Positions 2,252-33,270 of a stretch of 33,270 nucleotides of DNA are shown in pieces. Origin of the DNA: Oscillospiraceae bacterium (GTDB taxonomy: Bacteria; Bacillota; Clostridia; Monoglobales; WRAG01); contig WRAG01000025.1 of NCBI GenBank assembly GCA_009780345.1, forward strand, positions 1 to 33,270. The letters are read 5' to 3'. Each line of letters opens with the position of its first letter. Position 1 is the first letter of the stretch. The translations under genes and the position numbers were made by a program. Under the pieces are notes generated by a model. It was given only the letters and a program-made list of their open reading frames with translations. It made no database searches and had not been told where the DNA came from.

Positions 2252-3217
2252 CTAATAATCCGTATTTATCAATATAGATCCTGTTTCCGCGTCCCAATCA
2301 ACGTTAAAATTTAATGCGCGTCCTAAATTGCGAAGCATAAAGTAATGATTACCGTTAATATAATACACAGGCGCCATGAAATGAACCCAATCACCATCGA
2401 CGAAAACTCTTGTCTGCGAAAGTATAGCCGTTGTATTTCCTGTGCTTGTATTTACCATTTCGCCGCCAACGGATTCATATGCTTGACTAGTGTTTAACAA
2501 AATTGCGCTCCTTGCGCCATCCCACTCAACATTAAATTCTGCCGACGTGCCGTTTAAGACATATGCAATATCGCGAAGCTTGAAAAAATTCCATCCTCTG
2601 ATGTGATACGCTTGAAACGCTGCAAGTTCGCCGTTTACAAATATAGGCGCCGCGGTTGGTTCGGCGATAACTTCGGTTCCGTATAACAGCAGTGTGGTTT
2701 GAAATTCCCTATCCGCAACAGAAACAGGCATTTCAAAAACAATAGTTCGCTCGTCAGACGCAGTCATCATTCCAATATCCAATGACATTTCAATATTAAT
2801 TACGTCCCAATTTTCATAAAGCGAATAAAGTGATAACACTTCCACTCTGCCAATGTTATGCATTGCAATTAAAGCAAAAACCAAAAAATTATCTTCAAAA
2901 AAAGATTCATCAAATCTCGGGTTAAGAAAAATTTCCGTTTCTATGGGTTTTAATGGGCGGTTACCTTGTCCGTCGAATCTTCTGCTCATGCTTATGTATT
3001 CCATGTTGGATTCATAAAAATCCGCCAATTCTTCAACCGACGTAAATTTAAAAACGCCATCATGTTCCCTATCAAGAAACAATCTGCCAAAATAGGTGGT
3101 TTCCTGCACAAGCCAGCTCAAATCCACTCTTGTCGATTCCGCCGTTTCTGCCGATACATATAAAACATTCGGAATAATCAATAAAATCGATAACATCAAC
3201 GCAATTGCTCTTTTCAC
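2252..3217 (-). CDS. Secreted stalk-domain (copper amine oxidase N-terminal-like) protein
   Basis: A predicted exported protein of 321 residues. I place the start at a GTG (3217-3215) that overlaps the fabK stop in a GTGA. It has AGGAG eight bases upstream and gives a clean signal peptide beginning VKRAIALMLSILLIIPNVL. An in-frame ATG at 3247 lies inside fabK and gives a poor leader. The C-terminal half has two stalk-type units: one with the pattern WNFFKLRDIAYVLNG followed by FNVEWDGARSAILL, the other HYFMLRNLGRALNFNVDWDA. This is the domain found at the N-terminus of copper amine oxidase and in many clostridial surface proteins; there is no oxidase catalytic domain. The N-terminal 190 residues are not recognised. 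Translational coupling to fabK puts a surface protein inside the fatty-acid operon. Confidence 0.82.
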   Translation of the reverse strand: MKRAIALMLSILLIIPNVLYVSAETAESTRVDLSWLVQETTYFGRLFLDREHDGVFKFTSVEELADFYESNMEYISMSRRFDGQGNRPLKPIETEIFLNPRFDESFFEDNFLVFALIAMHNIGRVEVLSLYSLYENWDVINIEMSLDIGMMTASDERTIVFEMPVSVADREFQTTLLLYGTEVIAEPTAAPIFVNGELAAFQAYHIRGWNFFKLRDIAYVLNGTSAEFNVEWDGARSAILLNTSQAYESVGGEMVNTSTGNTTAILSQTRVFVDGDWVHFMAPVYYINGNHYFMLRNLGRALNFNVDWDAETGSILINTDY

Positions 3218-4110
3218 GCCATCATCTCCTGTATAATTTCCGCACACGGCTTGATTTCCTTCACCAACCCAGCGATTTGCCCCGCCATAAGCGAGCCCAT
3301 TGCCGCGTCACCGTCAATGACCGATTTTTGCAAGCTTCCCGCGCCGAATTTTTCAAATTCTTCAACAGGAATGTTCTCTTTTTCCATTTTGTCGAGTTCT
3401 TTTGTCAATTTATTTTTAATCTGCCGAACCGGATGCCCCGTATATCGACCGCACACAACAGCGTCACGGTCTTTCGCCGCAATCACCGCCGCTTTGTAAT
3501 TCTCGTGCGCGATACACTCGTTTGAGCAAATAAACCGCGTTCCAACCTGCACGCCGTCAGCTCCAAGGGCGAACGCCGCCTTAACGCCGCGGCTATCGGC
3601 GATTCCGCCTGCCGCAATTACAGGAATTGAAACAACGTCGGCAACTTGCGGAATCAAAACGAACGTCGTAAGCTCGCCGATATGTCCGCCTGCCTCGGTT
3701 CCCTCCGCAATCACCGCGTCGGCGCCAACGCTTTCCATGCGTTTCGCAAGGGCGACGCTGGGCACGACAGGAATCACTTTCGTGCCGCCGGATTTCAACT
3801 TTTCAATATATTTCCCGGGATTTCCCGCGCCGGTAGTGATTACCGCCACTTTTTCATCGAATATCACTTCCATCACTTCGTCTACAAACGGCGATAACAG
3901 CATCACATTAACGCCGAACGGCTTGTCTGTAAGCGTTCGCGCCAGTTTGATTTGTTCGCGCACCCAATCGGCGGGTGCGTTCCCCGCGGCGATTAAGCCA
4001 AGTCCGCCGCCGTTTGACACAGCCGCGGCAAGTTCGGCGGTTGCGACCCACGCCATTCCGCCTTGTATGATAGGATATTTGATTTGCAGTAATTCGCATA
4101 GTTTGTTCAT
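3214..4110 (-). CDS. fabK: Enoyl-ACP reductase II (FabK), FMN-dependent
   Basis: FabK performs the last step of each fatty-acid elongation round, reducing enoyl-ACP with NAD(P)H and FMN. It replaces the triclosan-sensitive FabI in many Bacillota. The 298-residue protein belongs to the nitronate monooxygenase/FabK barrel family. Seen: IIQGGMAWVATAELAAAVSN at the N-terminus, the flavin-site glycine motif GTEAGGHIG, and IPVIAAGGIADSRG followed by GADGVQVGTRF (phosphate binding). The close neighbours fabD and fabH favour FabK over a nitronate monooxygenase. The ATG at 4110 has an AAGGAGA site. A 555-bp hairpin array separates it from fabH; acpP, commonly found at this point in clostridial fab operons, is absent. 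Confidence 0.94.
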   Translation of the reverse strand: MNKLCELLQIKYPIIQGGMAWVATAELAAAVSNGGGLGLIAAGNAPADWVREQIKLARTLTDKPFGVNVMLLSPFVDEVMEVIFDEKVAVITTGAGNPGKYIEKLKSGGTKVIPVVPSVALAKRMESVGADAVIAEGTEAGGHIGELTTFVLIPQVADVVSIPVIAAGGIADSRGVKAAFALGADGVQVGTRFICSNECIAHENYKAAVIAAKDRDAVVCGRYTGHPVRQIKNKLTKELDKMEKENIPVEEFEKFGAGSLQKSVIDGDAAMGSLMAGQIAGLVKEIKPCAEIIQEMMA

Positions 4111-21392: not shown

Positions 21393-22760
21393 TTAATTCC
21401 GCATTTCGTTTAATTGCTCCATAATGATGTCTTCAATGCGGCGATTTGAGACCGATGGTCTCGGGGTGTTATCGCTTGGTTCTTCGGGTGTTTCCATGAT
21501 TGTTTCGTTATTCGCCGCCGGTTCCGGTGTTTCGGTCGGAACTTCGGCGATTTCCGACGTGACCGGTTCAACGGGAACTGCATTATTCACCGTTTCGAAA
21601 GGTTCGGCAGGTGTTGCGGCGCTTATATCTTCCGTCGTCGGTGGTTCGGCAACATCGGTATCAACTTCCTCGGTGTTGCACCATTCGGTTGGTTCTGTCG
21701 GCGCTATAGGCGTATAAACTTCTTCTGCCGTTATCTCGATTTCAACTTCCGCCAAAATTTCGTCCGGAAAGGTGAAATCAATCACCGCCGCGGCAGCCGA
21801 GCCGATCATTAAAACCGTCATTGTCGCGATGATTGACAAAGCGACAATTGATTTGCGGGTTTTCTTTGTGCTGATTATATTTGTTAGCCGTCTTTTGATG
21901 TTTTTCTTGGAATTACACAAGCCGCTTGTGCAAATTAGGTTTCTTTGCACATTGCCGTGCCGCAGCATAGCCAAAATCATTTCGCCATAAAACTTGCGGT
22001 TTGACTCGTCCATGCCTTTGACGACCTTTTCGTCGCACGAAAGCTCGCATAACGCGTTGATTTGCTTGTTAAGGACATAAACGGCAGGATTAAACCAATG
22101 CGCCGCGTTTACCAGTAGGATAATGAACTTTACCAACACGTCTTTTCGCCGAAAATGCGTAAGTTCGTGCGCTAAAATCACGTCAAGTTCTTTTTCGCTG
22201 AACTTCATATCAGGCAACACGATAATCGGTTTAAAAAACCCAACCAACATTGGTGTGTCGGCGTAATTGCTGACACGTATGGGGATAGCGCATCGTATCG
22301 AAAAACATCTTCTGCTGTTTTGAAGAAGTAAGCGGCGATACTTTCGATATTTGTATACATTTACAGCGACAAAAAGGATTGCGCCGATTGCCCAAATAAC
22401 AGTCAGCAAAACCGCGAAGGTTCTGATATGTTCTGATATGCTTGACAAAAGTTGTCCGGCAAAAGACGGATCACTTGCCGCCGATATCGCTTCGGTTTGC
22501 AGAGCCGGCGAAGCGAGTTGGTTAACTGTTGTGGCAACGGGCGGCGCAACGCTTGCATTTCCGAAATGCGAACGAAAAAACTGAATCGCGTTGTTTAGCA
22601 ATCCTGCGCCGCCGATAAAGAAAAACACGGTGATAAAACTTGTGTAATAATGCCATGTTTTCGAGAACAGCCTTTGCGTAAGCGGTTTGAGGCTCAACAG
22701 AATCAGCAAAACAAAAGTTCCCGCCAATGATGTGGCAATCAGCCAAGTTAAGAAGTTCAT
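21393..22760 (-). CDS. BlaR1/MecR1-like M56 membrane metallopeptidase without penicillin-binding domain
   Basis: A 455-residue membrane sensor-protease. Membrane segments lie at about 3-24, 38-56, 112-135 and 304-326. The zinc motif HELTHFRRKD at about 198-207 (His198, Glu199, His202) and the downstream ELSCDEKV (third ligand region) mark the M56 family, which cleaves BlaI-type repressors after a signal. The penicillin-binding sensor domain of true BlaR1 is missing; in its place is an outside tail of about 130 residues rich in Pro, Glu and Thr (IAPTEPTEW..., VPTETPEPA...). The signal it senses is therefore probably not a beta-lactam bound covalently. It overlaps blaI by 4 nt (ATGA). Confidence 0.9.
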   Translation of the reverse strand: MNFLTWLIATSLAGTFVLLILLSLKPLTQRLFSKTWHYYTSFITVFFFIGGAGLLNNAIQFFRSHFGNASVAPPVATTVNQLASPALQTEAISAASDPSFAGQLLSSISEHIRTFAVLLTVIWAIGAILFVAVNVYKYRKYRRLLLQNSRRCFSIRCAIPIRVSNYADTPMLVGFFKPIIVLPDMKFSEKELDVILAHELTHFRRKDVLVKFIILLVNAAHWFNPAVYVLNKQINALCELSCDEKVVKGMDESNRKFYGEMILAMLRHGNVQRNLICTSGLCNSKKNIKRRLTNIISTKKTRKSIVALSIIATMTVLMIGSAAAAVIDFTFPDEILAEVEIEITAEEVYTPIAPTEPTEWCNTEEVDTDVAEPPTTEDISAATPAEPFETVNNAVPVEPVTSEIAEVPTETPEPAANNETIMETPEEPSDNTPRPSVSNRRIEDIIMEQLNEMRN

Positions 22761-23290: not shown

Positions 23291-23318
23291 ATATTTCGAG
23301 AGGAATATTTCATATATT
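23291..23318 (+). promoter_or_regulatory. Candidate sigma-E-type promoter of spoIVA
   Basis: ATATTT (23291-23296), a 14-bp spacer and CATATATT (23311-23318, 6 of 8 to CATACAAT). This matches the mother-cell sigma-E pattern that controls spoIVA in Bacillus. The AT-rich context makes chance matches likely. Confidence 0.4.
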
Positions 23319-23340: not shown

Positions 23341-24627
23341 ATGGAAGGCTATAACATATACAAGGATATAGCGAATCGAACGCAGGGCGATATTTACGTC
23401 GGCGTTGTCGGGCCGGTTAGGACGGGGAAAAGTACGTTTATCAAGAATTTTATGGACTTGCTTGTGCTGCCGAATATCGAAAATGAGTACAAGCGGGAGC
23501 GAGCGATGGATGAGTTGCCGCAATCCGCGGCAGGACGCATGATTATGACCACCGAGCCGAAGTTTATTCCGAACGAGGCGGTGGAAATCGCTTTAGCCGA
23601 CAACGCGAATTTCCGTATGCGGATGATTGACTGCGTAGGTTACATCGTGGACGGCGCAATGGGGCATCTTGAGGACAATTTGCCGCGCATGGTGAAAACG
23701 CCGTGGTTCGAGCATGAAATTCCGTTCACCGAAGCGGCGGAATTGGGTACAAAAAAGGTAATTACCGACCATTCGACAATCGGAATTGTGGTTACAACCG
23801 ACGGATCGGTTACCGAAATCGGGCGGGATGAATATCTTCACGCGGAGGAGCGGGTGATTGACGAACTTAAGCGCATGGGTAAGCCGTTTATGATTGTTTT
23901 GAATACTGTGAATCCTTATTCCGAGCATATCGAGAGTATGGCGATGGATTTGGAAGAAAAGTACGGAGTTTCAGTTTTGCCGCTTAATTGCCGCGATATG
24001 ACGATTAAAGATGTAAATACCGTGATGGAAACGATACTGTTCGAGTTTCCGCTTAAAGAAATCGGCATAAATATTCCAAAATGGATTGACACTTTGGAAT
24101 CGTCGCACTGGTTGCGCCGTGGGATACGCGAGGTTGTCGCGTCAACTGTAAAAGGAATTCACAAAATTAAGGAAGCGAATATTGTCGTTGGCGCGCTTGC
24201 GGAGTATGAGCATGTCGCGAAGGTGAATATGAGTGGAATCAGCTTGGGCGATGGGAAGGTAAGTATTGACGTTTCGGCGGTTGAAAATCTGTTTTACAAA
24301 ATTTTGGGCGAGCGCAGCGGATTTGAGGTTAATGACGACGAGGCGCTGATGAGACTTATGTGCGATTTGTCGCAAACGAAGCGGGAGCATGATAAAGTTG
24401 CGATTGCGTTGCAGGAAGTGGCGCAAAAGGGATATGGAATTGTGTCGCCGACCATTGACGAGCTAACATTGAGTGAGCCGGAGATTGTGAAGCAGGGGAA
24501 TAGGTTTGGGGTTAGGCTGAAAGCTTCGGCGCCGAGCATACATATGATTCGGGCGGATATTGAAACAGAGGTTTCAAAATACAAAATGAAGGGCATGTTT
24601 GCAAGTTTGCAAACATGCCCTTCATAA
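23341..24627 (+). CDS. spoIVA: Stage IV sporulation protein A (SpoIVA), 3'-truncated
   Basis: SpoIVA is an ATPase that polymerises around the forespore as the base of the spore coat. Residues 1-415 align by eye along the whole family: MEGYNIYKDIANRTQGDIYV, Walker A GPVRTGKST at 24-32, the MTTEPKFIP region, DCVGY, TPWFEHEIPF and RFGVRLKASAPSIHMI. After IHMIRADIETEV the family sequence stops, and 14 unrelated residues (KMKGMFASLQTCPS) follow, encoded by a terminator hairpin. Bacillus SpoIVA has 492 residues; this has 428. The missing C-terminal part is the one that contacts SpoVM and finishes the polymer. No remnant lies downstream in any frame. The ATG has GAGGAGG upstream. Function is doubtful unless another copy exists. 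Confidence 0.93.
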   Translation: MEGYNIYKDIANRTQGDIYVGVVGPVRTGKSTFIKNFMDLLVLPNIENEYKRERAMDELPQSAAGRMIMTTEPKFIPNEAVEIALADNANFRMRMIDCVGYIVDGAMGHLEDNLPRMVKTPWFEHEIPFTEAAELGTKKVITDHSTIGIVVTTDGSVTEIGRDEYLHAEERVIDELKRMGKPFMIVLNTVNPYSEHIESMAMDLEEKYGVSVLPLNCRDMTIKDVNTVMETILFEFPLKEIGINIPKWIDTLESSHWLRRGIREVVASTVKGIHKIKEANIVVGALAEYEHVAKVNMSGISLGDGKVSIDVSAVENLFYKILGERSGFEVNDDEALMRLMCDLSQTKREHDKVAIALQEVAQKGYGIVSPTIDELTLSEPEIVKQGNRFGVRLKASAPSIHMIRADIETEVSKYKMKGMFASLQTCPS

Positions 24628-24640
24628 TTCTTTTTATTAA
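24588..24640 (+). terminator. Intrinsic terminator inside the end of the spoIVA frame
   Basis: Perfect 17-bp arms (24588-24604 with 24607-24623, GAAGGGCATGTTTGCAA and its complement), followed by TAATTCTTTTTATT. The arms encode the last residues of the spoIVA reading frame. On the other strand a T-rich tract (TTCATTTTGTATTTT) also follows, so it may serve the convergent surface-protein gene too. Confidence 0.85.
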
Positions 24641-27117
24641 TTTGTCGAATACAGCCGAGAGTTTATTGCGATTCGTTTTTTATGTTTTAAAAGTTTTACC
24701 AATACAATAATTAAAAAGGCAAATAACGCAAAAACCAAAAGTGCTATAAGTATTCCCGAAATTGCGAAAGGCGTTGATGCCGGAGCTGACGCCACAGAAT
24801 TTAGTTCATTTACCGCTTGTTGCAGAAGAACGTATGCATTCTCGATTTCGTCCGGGGTAGAATTTGGGTTATTAAAAATATTTTCCGCATAGCTGATAGC
24901 AGCTTGCAAATTCGCCCAAGACGCCTCATCGTAGATATTTTCACGGTTTGATATTTTATTTACGTTGTTTAACGCGGCGCCTATGTAAGATATTCCGTTG
25001 CTTGCGTCGCCGAACAGGATTTCCCAACGATTTGACGCGTTATCCTCATCTAAAATTGTAAATCTGTATACGATGTTATTTTCCATTCTAAATCCGGCGG
25101 GAACCGTGTCAAATTCGATTTTTATTTCTGTAATAATTTCGTCATCGTTTAATCGCGGCGGCAAAAGTAAGAAAGGTCTGTCTGCCGGAATATTATTCGC
25201 CATGATACGAAGCGAATTATTCAGATTTGTTCGATATTTAACGGTGTAGAAAAGTCCGTCGCCGCGCGTAAATGCCGGAATTTCACCGATTTCGAATTGT
25301 AAACCCAACGACAGCCTGTTAACTATTCTGAAGCGATTTATGCTTCTGTTTATAGGGTTGCCGATATTTGTTAGGTTAAATTCAACTGCAACAGGGTCTA
25401 TGTTTTCAGCAGAAGAGTCTTCTTCGGATGCCGGTTCATTTATTGAAGCGTCTTCGGACGGCTTGTTTGATTCGTTAGAGTTGTCCGCCGCCGGTTCAAT
25501 TTCGGAGAATTCTTCGTCAACAGGAGTTTCCTCTTGCGCGCTTTCTTCCGGAGCATCTTCTTCTACAGGAGTTTCCTCTTCCGGTGTTTCTTCGGCTGGG
25601 ATTTCTTCTTCCGGTGGAACTTCTTCTTCAGGTATAGTTTCTTCTGGCGGTTCGTCATTAACATCCGGGTTTTCTTCAATATCAATGTCATTGTCATCAA
25701 GTGGTGGAGGCGGAGGCGTTACAATAGGACCGCCAACTGTGTTTCGAAGCCACACAGCTGTGAAAGTTCGCGGTTCGCTTACCGTTAGTTCGGAAACATA
25801 AGTTGAACTTAATATCGGACCTGTGCCGTTTTCCTGCCAACCCCTGAATCTATGATTTGATCGTGTTGGCACCGGCACTATCGCGCCGATTTCTTCGTTT
25901 TCTATAATAGGAACTAAAATTGTGTCTGTGTTTCCGGCAACGTTTCCGCCGTTCAGGTTGAAAGTTACATAGTGCATTATTGGTGGCGGCGGCATAATAG
26001 CTAATATGACATCGCCGTTGTTTCCATGTGTGACGTCATAGCTCCAAGTTGGAGGAATTATTGCCTTAATGTTATTTTCATTAGTTGACTGCGGGAAAGT
26101 TATTGTGATATTTCCATCATTATCATAGCTAATTTTGTAATTAACATCAACCCATGGCGGCATTTTAACAGTTGCGTGACCATATTCGTCAACTTCTACG
26201 ATTATGCTTGCAAATCCCCAAACGGCGTATACGGTTATGCTTTGGTTCGGAACTACGGTTACAGATGTTACCAACGTTGGTATTGCGTCATCTATTTTTA
26301 GTATGCTGGTTGGTTCGGTCAAACTCCAGCCGATAAATATTACGTTCGTAATTTTTCCGCCTAATTCAGCAGGTGCGTGTATTGGTTCGGTTGTGCTTAG
26401 TGGCCTATTTGCTCCTGCCACGGCAAAAACAGGATTAGGATGCGGGCCGCTTGTTCCGTTTGTCAAGTTATATATAATTGCTCCTCGATTTAAGACGTCT
26501 GCAATTCCGTTTTGGTTAGTGTCAAATCCCCAAACAGCGTATACGGTTACGTTTCCGTCGCCTATTACAGTAACTTGGGTTACAACTGACGGCACTGCGT
26601 CGCGTATCGTCAATATTCTTGCGGGTTTTGTCAAGCTCCAACCGATAAATGCCACAGCGGTTATTTCGCCGTCTAAATATGTAGGCAAGTGTGTCGGCAC
26701 TATGTCGCTTAACGGTCTGTTTGGACCTGTGGACCTTCGTTCGGGGTTCGGGTGAGGACCGCCTGTTCCGCCGTTTAAGTAATATGTTATATTTCCTTGG
26801 TGACCAAAGGCAACAATGCCTCTGTCATTACTATCATAGTTATCCGGTATGTGCGGCTCTCTTTCTCTTTCTATTATCACTACATCTTCTGTTATTGAAT
26901 CAGATATTACATCAGACTCATTTGTATCAGCTGTGTCCGTTTCAATTGTTGGTTCTTCAACTGTTGGTTCTGAACTTTCCGTATAATTTGCATGGGAAAA
27001 TTCCTCGTGCGTAATTACGTCAAGGGTTGAATCTGACATTACCGATATAGGCAACGACAATATTATAGCTATCACTATAGCCAACGATAATATTTTTTTA
27101 AGTTTAATCGTCGTCAT
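24637..27117 (-). CDS. Membrane-anchored surface protein with InlB-type repeats and FIVAR-like region
   Basis: An 826-residue cell-surface protein. Order: signal peptide (about 1-28), acidic Ser/Thr-rich stretch (30-95), two related modules of about 100 residues (108-199 and 212-302; each has Y-LNGG/NG-SGPHPNP, NRPLS, FIGWSLT-P and a final VTVYAVWGF), a linker, a classical InlB B-repeat (about 382-457: VTFNLNGGNV, FRGWQENG, TFTAVW), a Pro/Glu-rich spacer (465-575), a beta domain (577-715), a FIVAR-like helical pair (about 728-775, LQAAISYAENIFNNP), one membrane helix (784-808) and a basic tail. It has no LPXTG sorting signal, so anchoring is by the C-terminal helix. The role is probably adhesion or stalk formation. 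It converges on spoIVA with only 9 bp between stop codons. Confidence 0.85.
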   Translation of the reverse strand: MTTIKLKKILSLAIVIAIILSLPISVMSDSTLDVITHEEFSHANYTESSEPTVEEPTIETDTADTNESDVISDSITEDVVIIEREREPHIPDNYDSNDRGIVAFGHQGNITYYLNGGTGGPHPNPERRSTGPNRPLSDIVPTHLPTYLDGEITAVAFIGWSLTKPARILTIRDAVPSVVTQVTVIGDGNVTVYAVWGFDTNQNGIADVLNRGAIIYNLTNGTSGPHPNPVFAVAGANRPLSTTEPIHAPAELGGKITNVIFIGWSLTEPTSILKIDDAIPTLVTSVTVVPNQSITVYAVWGFASIIVEVDEYGHATVKMPPWVDVNYKISYDNDGNITITFPQSTNENNIKAIIPPTWSYDVTHGNNGDVILAIMPPPPIMHYVTFNLNGGNVAGNTDTILVPIIENEEIGAIVPVPTRSNHRFRGWQENGTGPILSSTYVSELTVSEPRTFTAVWLRNTVGGPIVTPPPPPLDDNDIDIEENPDVNDEPPEETIPEEEVPPEEEIPAEETPEEETPVEEDAPEESAQEETPVDEEFSEIEPAADNSNESNKPSEDASINEPASEEDSSAENIDPVAVEFNLTNIGNPINRSINRFRIVNRLSLGLQFEIGEIPAFTRGDGLFYTVKYRTNLNNSLRIMANNIPADRPFLLLPPRLNDDEIITEIKIEFDTVPAGFRMENNIVYRFTILDEDNASNRWEILFGDASNGISYIGAALNNVNKISNRENIYDEASWANLQAAISYAENIFNNPNSTPDEIENAYVLLQQAVNELNSVASAPASTPFAISGILIALLVFALFAFLIIVLVKLLKHKKRIAINSRLYSTN

Positions 27118-27157
27118 ATTCGCTCTCCAATTATAATTTTATGGTACTTTCCTTAAT

Positions 27158-27186
27158 ATAATATCACAATCATTGACAATTTGCAA
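27158..27186 (-). promoter_or_regulatory. Possible promoter of the 24637-27117 surface-protein gene
   Basis: On the minus strand: TTGCAA (27186-27181), 17 bp, TATTAT (27163-27158). The leader would be about 35 nt, with GGAGAG before the ATG. The region is very AT-rich, so this is tentative. Confidence 0.4.
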
Positions 27187-27250
27187 GAAAAATTTTAAAT
27201 TGCAAGAATTATTTATTTTTACATTTGTACTATGAATATGCTGAAAAATA

Positions 27251-27259
27251 TGATATAAT
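27251..27259 (+). promoter_or_regulatory. Extended -10 promoter of the sigma-factor gene
   Basis: TGATATAAT (27251-27259) is a perfect extended -10 box; no good -35 is seen. The leader would be about 115 nt and includes an A/T-rich stretch with AAATTTAAAAAAATTTTAAA. The rest of the 265-bp divergent gap holds nothing else recognisable. Confidence 0.45.
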
Positions 27260-27382
27260 GATTACAAAACAGTCGCTGTGAAATAATGTGGATAAAAAAA
27301 TTTAAAAAAATTTTAAAAATAATCTACACTTTTTAAGAAAGTTGCTTACTTAAAATATGAGCGAAAAGCGTGAGGTGCTTTT

Positions 27383-28588
27383 ATGACAAACAAAGAAATT
27401 GCAGTATTAGTAAAAAAAGTTCAAAAGGATAAGAAAAATTCTTTTGAAGAATTGTACCGGGGAATTTGGAACACGGTTTATTACTTCTGTTATAAAAGTC
27501 TTGGTAATGAACAGGATGCAAAGGATGCGATGCAAACTGTTTTTATGCAACTTTACAATCAAATTGATACACTTCGTGTTCCGGATGCGTTCAATAAGTT
27601 CTTACACATAATAATGCGCGCGACATGCTCTAACTTTTATAAGTTAAAAGAAGGCAAAGATACAGACGAAATTGAAGTATATGAATCTGTGCCGGAAGAG
27701 AAAGCAGAGTTTTTGCCGAGCGAAGCGTATGAGAGACAAGATGTGCGTGACGAAATTGCTAAAATGATTGAAAATTTGCCTGCGAAGCAGCGTGAGGCAA
27801 TACTGCTTTTCTACTATGATGGAATGTCGATTAAAGAAATCGCTGAAATTACAGACAGTAAATTTGACGCAGTAAATAATCGTTTGGTTACAGCGCGAAA
27901 ATCTTTGAGAGAAAGAGCTGAAATGCTTATTAAGAAAGGAGCGCTAAACTATACTATGGCTATTATACCTATTCCTATTCTTACGAGAATTTTGCGTGAG
28001 GAAGCACAACAAATTGCCACGTCGGAAATATGTGAACTTGCTTGGCAAGGGATTTGCGCTTCTTGTGGCATTGTGATTGCCGGAATCGCGGGAGCGGCTG
28101 CGGCGACCACAACTACGTCGACTACGACCGCTGCCGGAACCGCTGCTGCGTCTAGCGTGTTTACTAATGTGGCTATTTGCTTAACTTGCGCCGCTGTGGT
28201 GGCGACAGGCGGGTTTCTTGCTTATTATGTGAACGATAATTTTATAAATCCGCCGGTGATTGAGGAAGTGTATAACTATGACGTTTCTTATGAGACTGAC
28301 GAATATGATTTTGATTCTGAATATCTTATAAATCTTATAAGATCAATAAATAACAGTATCGAGTTTATGGAGTTTGTTGATGTATATGATGCTGTATTCT
28401 TGAGTGGAGCGTCGTTAGTTGGCGCGGAAGAAAAAATGCTTTTCTATATTGAAGAAACAAATCGATTTATTTATTTTGGATATGTTGAAAATGTTGACAA
28501 TGGATTTCGAGTTGTATATGAAACAACAGAGGATAGAATATCTTTTACAGATGAGCAAGTCGATGAGTGGTTTGGACGAATGCAGTAA
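27383..28588 (+). CDS. ECF-type sigma factor fused to a transmembrane and C-terminal domain
   Basis: A 401-residue protein. Residues 1-90 have sigma region 2 (FEELYRGIWNTVYYFCYKSL, EQDAKDAMQTVFMQLY) and 118-182 have region 4 (LPAKQREAILLFYYDGMSIK, EIAEITDSKFDAVNNRLVTA). Region 3 is absent, as in ECF (group 4) factors. The usual ECF protein stops near residue 185; this one goes on with a weakly hydrophobic segment (223-241), an Ala/Thr linker, a clear membrane helix (259-283) and an acidic domain of about 115 residues with no recognised family. The sigma part should be cytoplasmic and the tail probably outside, if only the second helix spans. No separate anti-sigma gene is seen. Neighbouring genes on both sides encode surface proteins, the likely targets. 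The ATG has GAGGTG upstream. Confidence 0.85.
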   Translation: MTNKEIAVLVKKVQKDKKNSFEELYRGIWNTVYYFCYKSLGNEQDAKDAMQTVFMQLYNQIDTLRVPDAFNKFLHIIMRATCSNFYKLKEGKDTDEIEVYESVPEEKAEFLPSEAYERQDVRDEIAKMIENLPAKQREAILLFYYDGMSIKEIAEITDSKFDAVNNRLVTARKSLRERAEMLIKKGALNYTMAIIPIPILTRILREEAQQIATSEICELAWQGICASCGIVIAGIAGAAAATTTTSTTTAAGTAAASSVFTNVAICLTCAAVVATGGFLAYYVNDNFINPPVIEEVYNYDVSYETDEYDFDSEYLINLIRSINNSIEFMEFVDVYDAVFLSGASLVGAEEKMLFYIEETNRFIYFGYVENVDNGFRVVYETTEDRISFTDEQVDEWFGRMQ

Positions 28589-29024
28589 AGTTAATTAAAT
28601 AAGGAACAAATTTTTGCAATAAATAAATACGTTTCATTATTTATGATAATTTATAATAAAAAGCATAAGCTATGAATAAACTATTTAATATAATGAAACG
28701 AATCAAAAAATTGTGTTTTTTAATCAAAAAAATGTTGACAAATTAAAAAAAATGTGTTAAACTATGTTGTAGGCTTTGTTAAATTGGCCATAGTGTGTCG
28801 ATTTGGCGAAATTTTAGCGTTGTTGTGATGATTTTGCAGTAGTTTTTCAGTTTGTTTGTTACGAAATATTGATCACGGCGCTTCATAATTTTATAAAAAA
28901 TTAATTAATATAATTCTAAGTAAACAAGGAGGCATGTTTATCCGAACCATGGTATTATACTCATTTTTAACAGGTGTTAAAAAACAGAAATTTAAAAAAT
29001 AAAAATTTAGGAGAGAATATTAAC
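28589..29024. other. AT-rich gap between the sigma factor and the dockerin protein
   Basis: This is 436 bp with no gene of recognisable family. It holds perfect 11-bp inverted repeats (CGTTTCATTAT at 28630-28640 and its complement at 28690-28700), a promoter at 28735-28763, and a leader of about 250 nt. Within the leader a short frame, 28934-29002, encodes 22 residues and sits directly behind AAGGAGG. I see no riboswitch signature. Confidence 0.6.
28735..28763 (+). promoter_or_regulatory. Promoter of the dockerin-protein gene
   Basis: Perfect TTGACA (28735-28740), a 17-bp spacer and TAAACT (28758-28763, 4 of 6). It implies a 5' leader of about 250 nt before the start codon at 29025. Confidence 0.55.
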
Positions 29025-32003
29025 ATGAAAAAGTTTTTAAGTATTTTAGTAGCTTTAACAATGGTACTTACAGTATTTGCCGGCGTATTTGCAGCGCCGC
29101 TTCAAGTAGTTCCGGACGGATACCACGGTATGGCCGGTCATTTCCGTGTTGTAAACGAGTCAATGGGCTTGGTAGCTATTGACGTTTTGTTCTATGGTGA
29201 CCACGCAAACCCGGGCACTACTTTCGGTAATGGATGGGCTCTTCACCTTGACGTTGACAATACTAAATTAGAGTGGGCAATGAGAGAAGGCTTTCCAGCA
29301 GGTGGTATTCATGTTGAAGGCGGACGAGTAGGCAACGTTGACAACAATGGCATACGTTCAAACATGTTGAACACTGCAGCAGCAGGTTGGGCAAACATGC
29401 CGCAACCGGATATGGTTGCACCTGGTTCTTATAGAATTGGTTTCACTATGACTTCAAATGCAACCAACTTGAATTATTACAGAAATTCATTTGGCGGCGA
29501 CACCGGTTATATCCGACACATTTATAACCCAAATACAGGCGCTATGGAATGGAAATTTTTCCCATCTGCAGATGGCGTACATTTGTTTTCAATGTACTTC
29601 TTAACTGTAGGAACATACACAGTTAACGATATTTCACAAAGCGATTTTGCTCTAAGAACATTTGGTACTGACGCGCCTAACGGAGCTTCTTTTATTAATT
29701 CTCCGCCGGCTACAATTGTAAACGACAACTTTATATGGGTAAACTTCCCTCACAGAATTACTTCAAGTGCTGGTCCGAATGGTACAATTTCTCCACTTGG
29801 AACACAATACTTTATGGCGGGAACATCTGCGACATACACAATCACAGCTAATGCTGGTTATGAAATTGACTTTATAATCGTAAACGGTCAACTTTTGAAC
29901 ATAGCTGATGATTTGACAACTTTCACTCACGTATTTACAAACATAAATGCTGACCAAACAATACATGTTGAGTTCAGAGATGAGAATGACCCACCGACAC
30001 CTCCAGAAGATTTCTGGGTAATCAACGCAACTACTACAGCTGGTGGTACAGTTTCTCCGGCAGGTAGCGTTGTAGTTGCAGACGGCGCGACTAACGTTTC
30101 TTTTGCTTTCACAGCAAACGCTAACTACGAGTTGCGTGAAGTTTATGTTAATGGCGTAGCTGTTGGTATTGCAGGTCCTCTTGCTACTTACACTTACACA
30201 TTTGCAGGTCCGATAACTGCTAACCAAACTATTTTTGGTAGATTTGCACAAATCACCGGCGGTGGAGATGATGTGTTTGTAACTCTTACTGCTACAGGTG
30301 ATGCAGGTGTTGCTACAATCAATCCTATCGGTGTTACTAGCCATTTGGTAGGGTCAACTCCGACTGTTACATTTACAATTGCTGGCGGATCTGTTCTTGA
30401 CGAAGTAATTGTTAATGGTACTAATGACGTAACTGCACAAGTTGTTTATGCAAATGGCGTTTACTCGTTCACTTTCCCTGCATTGACAGCAAATGCTACA
30501 ATTGAAATTTCTACTATACTTGATGCTCCTCCGGTAATCACTTATCCGGCAAACAACGCGGTTATGAGCGAAAATCAACCGACTATCACAGTTGACGCTC
30601 ATGCTGATGCTCAATCTGTTTGGGTGGTAATCAATACATCTGCCGGCGTTCTTGTAACAGAAGGCGCTGCAACGTACAATACTACTACAAACGAATGGGA
30701 ATTCACGCCTGCTACTGAACTTGCGGACGGCATTTATGACGTACACGCAACACAAACAATTGGCGGAAACACAAGCCCTAATAGTGATGTTGTAAGATTT
30801 ACAGTAAGAACTACTATAGATCCTCCTGCAATCGCTACACCTCTTGCAGTTGCCGGAGTTCCATACAGAACTAACAACGTAAGACAACCGATCACAGGTA
30901 CAGGTATTGTAGGTTACACTGTTTATGTTGAAATCCGTGACACAGCTAATGCTGTAGTAGCAAGCGGTCCTGTAACAGTTGCGGCTGACGGAACTTGGTC
31001 TTTCACTCCTGCTGCTGATCTTGTTACTCCGGACCCATATGTTGCTTATGTATTTAGCGCAAGAGCAAGACATGAAGATGCGACTTTGAACATCAACAGC
31101 GCATGGACGACTCAAGATAGCAGATTCTCTTTGAAAACTGCAATCGAAGATCCGGAATTCGATGATGAATTTATCGGAACAGAAAATGATCCTGCAATTG
31201 TTGACGAAGAAAGACCTACTATTACAGGTGAAGGTGAGCCTGGTGCGACTGTTACAATCAGAATCTACAACGGCGACGATAACGACGATTTCTTAGGCGA
31301 GTGGGAAGTAACTGTAGACGCTAACGGCGAATGGTCTTTCACGGTTCCGTTTGATCTTGAAGAAGACAAAACTTACAGAATTAACATTGAACAAGAAGAC
31401 GAGCATGGAAACACAAGTAACGATGTTGACACTTGGATAACACCTGATTTTAGAATCTACAGAAGAATTTCAGGTTTTGTAAATTATGATGGATTTAACA
31501 TCTTTAACCAAGTTCCAACAGCGACTGTAAGACTTTACAACGCAGCTAATGATAACTTTGTTGCTGAAACTACAGCTTCTGTATTTGTGAATAATGGTAG
31601 ATTCGAGTTTGCTAGAGTTGATTCAGCGTTGACTTACTACATCGTAATTCACAAACAAAACCACACAATCGTGACAATTGAAAATGTTCAGTTTGATCGT
31701 ACTGCTTTCCTTGCAGGCAGCGGCACTAATCCTGCGTTGATTCCAAATATCGATTATTCAGATGAGGTGGGAACAAGATTCTTATTGTTTGCAGGTAACA
31801 TGGACGCGATCAATGACAGCGAAATCAACACACTTGACTGGTCGTTGTTGGTAAATTCAATGTTCCAAACGCATGCTCAAGCTTTAGAACAAGACTTGAC
31901 TGATGACGGGCAGATTAACGTTTTGGATCAATCGTTGTTGCTTAACAACTTCTTGCAAACAGACAGAGTTGTTCAACACAGTGCTTTAACTTTATTGCCT
32001 TAA
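29025..32003 (+). CDS. Large secreted multi-domain protein with C-terminal dockerin
   Basis: A 992-residue exported protein. The ATG at 29025 has AGGAGAG upstream and gives a clean signal peptide (MKKFLSILVALTMVLTVFAG); an in-frame GTG 51 bp earlier does not. Order: an N-terminal beta module (about 35-240), three divergent InlB-type units (about 244-317, 331-408, 417-497; pattern G-ISP-G, ANAGYE, VNG, NADQTIHVEF), three bacterial Ig-like domains (about 501-595, 598-704, 722-812), a carboxypeptidase-regulatory-like fold (about 815-890), and a type I dockerin at 923-978 with two calcium-loop repeats (AGNMDAINDSEINTLDWSLL and DLTDDGQINVLDQSLLLNNF). No enzyme domain is seen. A dockerin binds cohesins, so the protein probably joins a surface complex. 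Arg is mostly AGA here, unlike in the left-hand genes. Confidence 0.88.
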   Translation: MKKFLSILVALTMVLTVFAGVFAAPLQVVPDGYHGMAGHFRVVNESMGLVAIDVLFYGDHANPGTTFGNGWALHLDVDNTKLEWAMREGFPAGGIHVEGGRVGNVDNNGIRSNMLNTAAAGWANMPQPDMVAPGSYRIGFTMTSNATNLNYYRNSFGGDTGYIRHIYNPNTGAMEWKFFPSADGVHLFSMYFLTVGTYTVNDISQSDFALRTFGTDAPNGASFINSPPATIVNDNFIWVNFPHRITSSAGPNGTISPLGTQYFMAGTSATYTITANAGYEIDFIIVNGQLLNIADDLTTFTHVFTNINADQTIHVEFRDENDPPTPPEDFWVINATTTAGGTVSPAGSVVVADGATNVSFAFTANANYELREVYVNGVAVGIAGPLATYTYTFAGPITANQTIFGRFAQITGGGDDVFVTLTATGDAGVATINPIGVTSHLVGSTPTVTFTIAGGSVLDEVIVNGTNDVTAQVVYANGVYSFTFPALTANATIEISTILDAPPVITYPANNAVMSENQPTITVDAHADAQSVWVVINTSAGVLVTEGAATYNTTTNEWEFTPATELADGIYDVHATQTIGGNTSPNSDVVRFTVRTTIDPPAIATPLAVAGVPYRTNNVRQPITGTGIVGYTVYVEIRDTANAVVASGPVTVAADGTWSFTPAADLVTPDPYVAYVFSARARHEDATLNINSAWTTQDSRFSLKTAIEDPEFDDEFIGTENDPAIVDEERPTITGEGEPGATVTIRIYNGDDNDDFLGEWEVTVDANGEWSFTVPFDLEEDKTYRINIEQEDEHGNTSNDVDTWITPDFRIYRRISGFVNYDGFNIFNQVPTATVRLYNAANDNFVAETTASVFVNNGRFEFARVDSALTYYIVIHKQNHTIVTIENVQFDRTAFLAGSGTNPALIPNIDYSDEVGTRFLLFAGNMDAINDSEINTLDWSLLVNSMFQTHAQALEQDLTDDGQINVLDQSLLLNNFLQTDRVVQHSALTLLP

Positions 32004-32040
32004 TGATTTTTGACTCTTACGAGAGAAAGGAGATATCCAA

Positions 32041-33270
32041 ATGAAAAGGATATTTACCATTCTGGTCGTAATCGCGATGCTGTCGGCACTTTTTGTGCCG
32101 GCAGCATTAGCTGATAATGGACCGGAATTTAATAATGGAACAAGAGCTTCATTTGTTATGGTTGATGAAGCTGAAGGACTTTTCAGGATTGATTTTAGGG
32201 CTTTTGGTAATCCTGGAAATGCTTTCGTATTTCATTTGGAATACGACAGCACACTTATGGAATTGGTTGCTCCTGACGGAAGCGCTATATTAGTTTCCGG
32301 CGATGCAATGCAAGCAGCAATGATGAGAGATTTTGACAACACGATAGTTGGAGATGCTCGTCATGACGATTTGGCATCTGGTTGGGCACGAGCTTCCGTT
32401 ACTGATGAGTCTCGTCCTCAATTTTTACCCGCAGCCGGTCTTGAGAGAGTAATATTGATCTTTACGACCTATCCGCAGCTTCCATCGGCGGCTAACAGGA
32501 TGATTGACTGGGGATTCTACATGTGGAATGACAACTCATTTAGAAATAACTTTGTGGCAATACCGCCGGCTGAAGGATTATTGCTATATTCGCTTTATTT
32601 CAGAAAATTAAGCGGCGTTGAATGGAATGAAATTAACGAAGACGCATTTGATTCTTACCCTGCGGGAACTGACGCTCCGTTAACAGGAGTTTCTACTATT
32701 ACTCCTATAAGCTGTATTATAAACGGCAATATTGTGGGGCAAGATGTTGAATGGGTAGGGTTTAATGTTTCACTTAGACCAAATCCTCCGGTAATTAGCA
32801 ATGTTACAGTTGGAAACGACTACAGAGCAACAGTAACCGGAACAGGCGTGCCCGGAGCGACAGTTAACGTTACAATCACGGATGATGACGGTGACGTTGT
32901 TGCAAGCGGAACCGCAACTGTTGGCGAAAATGGCAACTGGACGTTTACAACGACCGATCCATTGCCGGATGGCAGTTATACAGCAGGCGCAACTCAAACT
33001 ACTGCAGGCGGAACAAGCAATGGTTCTAACGAAGTAGACTTTGATGTCGAAAGAGCGCCACAACAACCAAATCCTCCGGTAATTAGCAATGTTACAGTTG
33101 GAAACGACTACAGAGCAACAGTAACCGGAAGAGGTGTACCGGGAGCAACAGTTAACGTTACAATCACAGATGAAGATGGTGATACTGTAACAGGAACTAC
33201 AACTGTTGATACTGATGGCAACTGGACGTTTACAACGACCAATCCATTGCCGGATGGCAGTTATACAGCA
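32041..33270 (+). CDS. Secreted protein with cohesin-like N-terminal module and tandem Ig-like repeats (incomplete)
   Basis: The frame is open from the ATG at 32041 to the window edge (410 codons, no stop). A signal peptide (MKRIFTILVVIAMLSALFVP) is followed by a module of about 220 residues related in layout to that of the preceding protein: GLFRIDFRAFGNPGNAFVFH then LEYDSTLMELV. This resembles a cohesin or carbohydrate-binding beta-sandwich, but I cannot assign it. Ig-like repeats of 96 residues begin near residue 248 (PPVISNVTVGNDYRATVTG...GNWTFTTTDPLPDGSYTA); a second one is cut by the window end. Start: GAAAGGAGA eight bases before the ATG. It lies 37 bp after the dockerin protein with no terminator between, so the two are one transcript. 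Confidence 0.85.
   Translation, partial: MKRIFTILVVIAMLSALFVPAALADNGPEFNNGTRASFVMVDEAEGLFRIDFRAFGNPGNAFVFHLEYDSTLMELVAPDGSAILVSGDAMQAAMMRDFDNTIVGDARHDDLASGWARASVTDESRPQFLPAAGLERVILIFTTYPQLPSAANRMIDWGFYMWNDNSFRNNFVAIPPAEGLLLYSLYFRKLSGVEWNEINEDAFDSYPAGTDAPLTGVSTITPISCIINGNIVGQDVEWVGFNVSLRPNPPVISNVTVGNDYRATVTGTGVPGATVNVTITDDDGDVVASGTATVGENGNWTFTTTDPLPDGSYTAGATQTTAGGTSNGSNEVDFDVERAPQQPNPPVISNVTVGNDYRATVTGRGVPGATVNVTITDEDGDTVTGTTTVDTDGNWTFTTTNPLPDGSYTA
32781..33270 (+). repeat. Tandem 288-bp Ig-domain repeat
   Basis: The unit starting at 32781 returns at 33069, a period of 288 bp (96 codons). The first 62 bases are identical, and stretches near 32925 and 33213 (GGCAACTGGACGTTTACAAC) are also identical, with a more variable middle. 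Similar DNA points to recent duplication or gene conversion; more copies may lie beyond the window. Confidence 0.9.

Follow-up and report, generated by a model that had tools for sequence, protein, structure and literature searches.

The window, the whole 33,270-nucleotide stretch of Oscillospiraceae bacterium DNA that was analysed, holds, from position 23291 onward, the 5′ part of the spore coat gene spoIVA, a hairpin and four further genes, the last of which continues on contig C3 of the same genome (a 59-contig assembly that we queried by family). The features are as follows, with a large serine recombinase abbreviated as LSR.

23291–23318, plus strand: sigma-E-like promoter match ATATT-N15-CATATATT upstream of spoIVA, from a consensus scan (weak, a consensus match only)
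23341–24572, plus strand: 5′ part of spoIVA, codons 1–411, with the ATPase and middle domains and including the attachment core (Pfam/NCBIfam matches)
24565–24572, plus strand: attL core ACAGAGGT, common to attR at C3 5217, within the shared run ACAGAGGTTTC
24573–24627, plus strand: end of the element, with the attP half-site arm AAAATACAAAATG (from 24576) and a 17-codon tail, SKYKMKGMFASLQTCPS
24586–24625, no strand: hairpin with 19-bp arms at 24586–24604 and 24607–24625
24637–27117, minus strand: cargo, 826-aa surface protein with a FIVAR domain and a C-terminal TM segment
27383–28588, plus strand: cargo, ECF-type sigma factor with a C-terminal extension
28974–32003, plus strand: cargo, 1009-aa secreted protein with Ig-like domains (dockerin-like C-terminal repeats seen by eye only)
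32041–33270, plus strand: cargo, start of an Ig-repeat/SLH protein, continuing in frame on C3
C3 1753–3291: cargo, 512-aa SLH protein
C3, directly ahead of the LSR: small ORF of 51 aa
C3 3597–5216 and 5217–5471: LSR fused to SpoIVA_C

In profile searches, the open reading frame at 23341–24627 (428 aa) matched the SpoIVA model TIGR02836 at positions 1–412 of 492 and contained the Pfam domains SpoIVA_ATPase and SpoIVA_middle, while no match to SpoIVA_C was found in it. The first-pass annotation of this DNA had described a SpoIVA frame that runs unbroken to about residue 414 and then stops at a perfect hairpin, and our data agree. The divergence from SpoIVA begins at the common core (24565–24572), approximately 20 bp ahead of the hairpin, which is strong (MFE −30.9 kcal/mol, z −7.9 against shuffles) and is likely a bidirectional terminator between 5′ spoIVA and the convergent surface gene. 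The latter ends at 24637, with 9 bp between it and the stop, as had been noted.

The same annotation considered the C-domain lost through a deletion that joined spoIVA to a foreign 3′ flank. The flank is foreign, and no C-domain was found downstream of 5′ spoIVA inside the window. However, PF20439 (SpoIVA_C) has one match in the window's genome, at C3 5241–5468 (E 1.7e-39). This match lies inside a 638-aa open frame, an LSR in which the SpoIVA C-domain makes up the final 84 codons, so that the 76 missing residues are encoded, in frame, by the end of a recombinase gene. C3 begins with exactly the 123 bases that end the window, and the Ig-repeat ORF stays in frame through the overlap; therefore, the two appear to be neighbouring contigs, for which the support is strong but not absolute, the overlap falling in a repeat. 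Joining the two spoIVA parts in silico at the common core gave a SpoIVA of 492 residues with a gapless match to TIGR02836 positions 1–492 of 492 (777 bits), compared with 627 bits for the 5′ part alone, which stops at position 412. The full-length match was obtained only after joining. A sequence search against solved structures returned no match.

Since the C-domain is intact about 13.8 kb further on, the foreign flank was brought in by site-specific insertion, not by deletion. A deletion, or a chimeric assembly join, is suggested by the absence of the C-domain when the window is taken alone, but we give either almost no weight, as the C-domain is intact in the genome and the same architecture is repeated in closed, single-contig genomes and with two recombinase clades. 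A second spoIVA copy, which had also been proposed, was not found in the window's genome. On the search for a second copy, the presence of the C-domain in the genome, the contig overlap and the closed genomes, we reject deletion, second copy and chimera. Nor does SpoIVA of the nearest relatives naturally end at this point: their spoIVA is either complete or split in a like manner.

The inserted element spans window positions 24565–33270 and C3 124–5216, and the direct repeat ACAGAGGTTTC is common to both of its junctions. attL reads ...GATATTGAA-ACAGAGGT-TTCAAAATACAAAATG and attR reads CATTTTGTGTAGGAAT-ACAGAGGT-TTCGCC..., which implies an attP in which the inverted arms CATTTTGTGT / ATACAAAATG flank the core. 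Serine integrases need such inverted attP arms around the core, and in the related genome G027 the arms are exactly inverted (CATTTTGTAT / ATACAAAATG). The LSR contains Resolvase and Recombinase domains together with a sub-threshold zinc-ribbon match, and it matches a PHROG integrase (E 7e-106). Both junctions, the common core, the inverted arms, the recombinase, the exact restoration in silico and the recurrence of the arrangement can be read directly from the DNA.

The coding sequence of a sporulation gene is interrupted here, with parts of spoIVA on both sides of the element. We propose, with a probability of roughly 0.78, that spoIVA is split by a skin-like element of about 13.8 kb that was inserted by the LSR and would be excised in the mother cell. 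In this model, the LSR would have recombined an attB in spoIVA, at codons 409–411, with an attP that forms part of the recombinase's own 3′ coding region. The element would stay chromosomal during growth and in the forespore. During sporulation, presumably under sigma-E, the LSR and a directionality factor would cut it from the mother-cell chromosome and rebuild spoIVA, and the reciprocal exchange would return the recombinase's own tail in the excised circle. The spore would keep the integrated copy.

About 22 genomes carry a split spoIVA, at two sites approximately 8 codons apart and with one LSR clade per site. The type 1 core lies at codons TEV and is occupied in the window's genome, G027, G030 and six named MAG genomes from termite gut and rumen (Oscillospiraceae, Defluviitaleaceae and Clostridia). 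All eight complete LSRs of at least 55% identity, which come from several lineages, carry SpoIVA_C as an in-frame fusion that starts at one and the same codon; LSRs below 50% identity are not fused to it. The type 2 core, ATACATAT, lies at codons IHM, about 8 codons upstream of type 1, and is occupied in 15 genomes, closed ones among them. They include genomes from the order of the window's host (G024, G025, G032, G035 and G046) and from elsewhere in the class (G076, G113, G139, G182, G241, G275, G380 and G385); the closed genome G182 is probably Ruminiclostridium cellulolyticum H10. In G063 and G065, both elements stand in tandem and spoIVA is in three pieces: the 5′ part is followed by a type-2 element with its recombinase at the end, then by 12 codons of host sequence (THMMRADITTEI / IHLIKADIETEV) and finally by a type-1 element whose recombinase is fused to the C-domain. 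In the tree, type 1, type 2 and the sigK-inserted LSRs each form one fully supported branch, the sigK group being a near sister clade of the spoIVA LSRs. G347 and G430 are ambiguous and do not enter the count: in both, the contigs carrying the two spoIVA parts (L251/L235 and L252/L253, respectively) end precisely at the type-2 core, which is what assembly of mixed occupied and empty sites might produce.

The arrangement could also mean that SpoIVA works as two pieces, the 5′ part and a separate C-domain made as the LSR-SpoIVA_C fusion or, at the other site, from an internal ATG, and that no DNA is excised. Both pieces are open; this holds for the C-domain in every case, and a start codon frequently precedes it. 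However, a precise attL and attR and a recombinase, which a split protein would not need, are present in every completely recovered element, and the 12-codon middle piece would be lost in the tandem cases. We therefore consider a two-piece SpoIVA very improbable.

A more serious alternative to developmental excision, although still an unlikely one, is that a mobile island simply knocks out spoIVA as its landing site, the loss of sporulation being tolerated or the insertion being recent and deleterious. Sporulation is often lost in gut hosts. Recent horizontal spread was seen between G027 and G030, which share 84 identical recombinase-tail bases while the host 3′ parts next to them show 38 differences in 252 bases. 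Bin G060 holds occupied and intact (unsplit, frameshifted) spoIVA alleles together, 97% identical and on contigs that end at the same base (the ends of L077 and L228), which may represent a polymorphic site or a strain mixture. Against a knock-out, the split is old in four Ruminiclostridium-like species of one genus. Their elements are collinear and have diverged alongside the host (dS 0.21–0.88 for the recombinase and 0.17–0.56 for the spoIVA 5′ part), and they are vertically inherited. Omega of the 5′ part is 0.03–0.05, and the 3′ part (84 codons, 6 kb away) shows a dN of 0 to 0.005 at a dS of 0.24–0.86, with 0 or 1 amino-acid change in the detached C-domain per species pair. Both parts of the split gene are under strong purifying selection in this genus, which would not be expected of a dead gene. 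Related LSRs also sit in sigK, dpaA and a CotJC-like gene. The window's host has Spo0A, SpoIIGA and two SASP genes, and both of its spoIVA parts remain open frames; the loss of sporulation that had been suggested is therefore not indicated. Synonymous sites of this genome are saturated against all relatives, and only the rows for G013 and G023 count in its selection test; under that saturation, pN/pS was 0.18 and 0.11 for the window's genome with each of them and 0.21 for the two as an intact control pair.

In type 1, in Ruminiclostridium-type elements and in the type-2 elements of G063 and G065, the recombinase frame reads through the core. In the excised circle, this frame would run into the sequence that now lies beside 5′ spoIVA, and the hairpin-encoded residues at the end of the window's spoIVA (SKYKMKGMFASLQTCPS) would be the recombinase's own C-terminus. 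Beside 5′ spoIVA in the four species, only that tail frame is open, and its pN/pS of 0.36 compared with 0.93 and 0.69 in the other frames is suggestive of conservation over a stretch of 34 codons. Only while integrated would the LSR end in the SpoIVA C-domain, and only after excision in its native tail, so that its activity could depend on its state. Counting against our model, the recombinase leader has a promoter that looks sigma-A-type (TTGACA-N16-TATAAT) in three of four related species, the fourth being without this leader, and we therefore reject a sporulation promoter for the recombinase. As this promoter does not look sporulation-specific, control would have to lie with the directionality factor. 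A conserved ORF of 44–60 aa near the LSR, without a family match in profile searches, is a candidate for this factor. In L241, L242 and L243, the attP half-site recurs, as CAAACAGAAGTGTAA, between the sigma-A-type promoter and the recombinase start, where self-repression is possible.

The cargo varies among the elements. That of G024 comprises 26 kb of polysaccharide synthesis genes, and that of G065 (about 89 kb) consists mainly of sugar transport and polysaccharide-degrading genes, as judged by eye from predicted proteins. The Ruminiclostridium-like elements carry AgrB, an AgrD-like peptide, a GHKL kinase and a dockerin-bearing GH53 enzyme. In L241, from a cellulosome-forming genus, the AgrD-like peptide (44 aa, reverse complement 3437–3571) is encoded after agrB within the spoIVA element. 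A common thread may be growth-phase functions that are dispensable in the mother cell. No phage structural or replication genes were recognised in the cargo examined, and the PHROG "tail" and "endolysin" matches in the window's genome sit on SLH repeats. No phage or plasmid LSR of at least 60% identity was found, the best phage LSR reaching 38%. With surface, SLH and sigma factor genes as its recognised cargo and no close phage or plasmid LSR, we reject a prophage origin for the element of the window's genome. We tentatively suggest, with the odds somewhat against us, that two LSR clades have specialised on adjacent codons of the essential spoIVA to dock growth-phase islands (surface layer, cellulosome, capsule, quorum sensing and sugar uptake), sometimes in tandem, which would be kept in the germ line (the spore) and shed in the mother cell, and that the 3′-end swap could tie recombinase activity to its own state.

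The principle of excisable elements is already known; new, judged by the open-access papers found, are the essential target spoIVA, the two convergent recombinase clades and the tandem stacking. The skin of sigK (SpoIVCA in B. subtilis; CD1231 with the RDF CD1234 in C. difficile) is likewise a serine recombinase element that splits a mother-cell sporulation gene, and its precise excision restores the frame, as joining in silico does here. The spoIVA element differs from skin in its target, in having its recombinase at the 3′ (attR) end with a frame that crosses the core and in the lack of phage genes among the cargo examined, and its excision is predicted from sequence. A similar case is gin of gerE in B. 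cereus ATCC10987 (PMC5595907), also a non-phage genomic island with serine recombinases in a sporulation gene; however, gin has three recombinases and another cargo and target, and its excision has been shown. SP-beta in spsM (PMC4191935), vfbin in spoVFB, the spoVR element and yin in yabG (PMC10747680), and an element in kamA (PMC6957869) follow the same principle in other genes and are mostly prophages, unlike the spoIVA element. The heterocyst elements of cyanobacteria (nifD, fdxN and hupL) also rebuild a gene by excision in a terminal cell type, although in another phylum, process and set of target genes. spoIVA is not among the interrupted genes named in the open-access literature (sigK, spoVFB, spoVR, spsM, gerE, kamA and yabG).

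SpoIVA, the ATPase on which the spore coat is built, belongs to the small set of coat proteins shared by all spore formers (PMC3533761). If our model holds in many Clostridia, programmed DNA loss in the mother cell would act earlier, on a sigma-E target, than skin does at sigK, and many "truncated spoIVA" annotations would not be pseudogenes. In Galperin et al. (2012), the spoIVA of Clostridium cellulolyticum H10 is given as left out of the annotation (PMC3533761), and a split gene would explain the omission. The element is likely present in Ruminiclostridium cellulolyticum H10, which, if a carrier, would make spoIVA excision testable in a species that is harmless and culturable.

Related LSRs were also observed at other genes. 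Those of L084, L085, L086 and L095 (attR side) are inserted in sigK, identified by a SigK model match for L084 and L086 and by sequence reading for L085 and L095. Others adjoin the 3′ part of dpaA (dipicolinate synthase A; L279, ~2991–3500) and of a CotJC-like manganese catalase gene (L280, ~3033–3460), probably further split sporulation genes. The 3′ part of a gene for a D-Ala-D-Ala carboxypeptidase is the site of an LSR clade from Bacilli/Mollicutes MAGs (L087, L088, L091 and L092). In the window's genome, another LSR (contig C11, 19573–21093) lies about 500 bp from a SASP gene (21614–21814).
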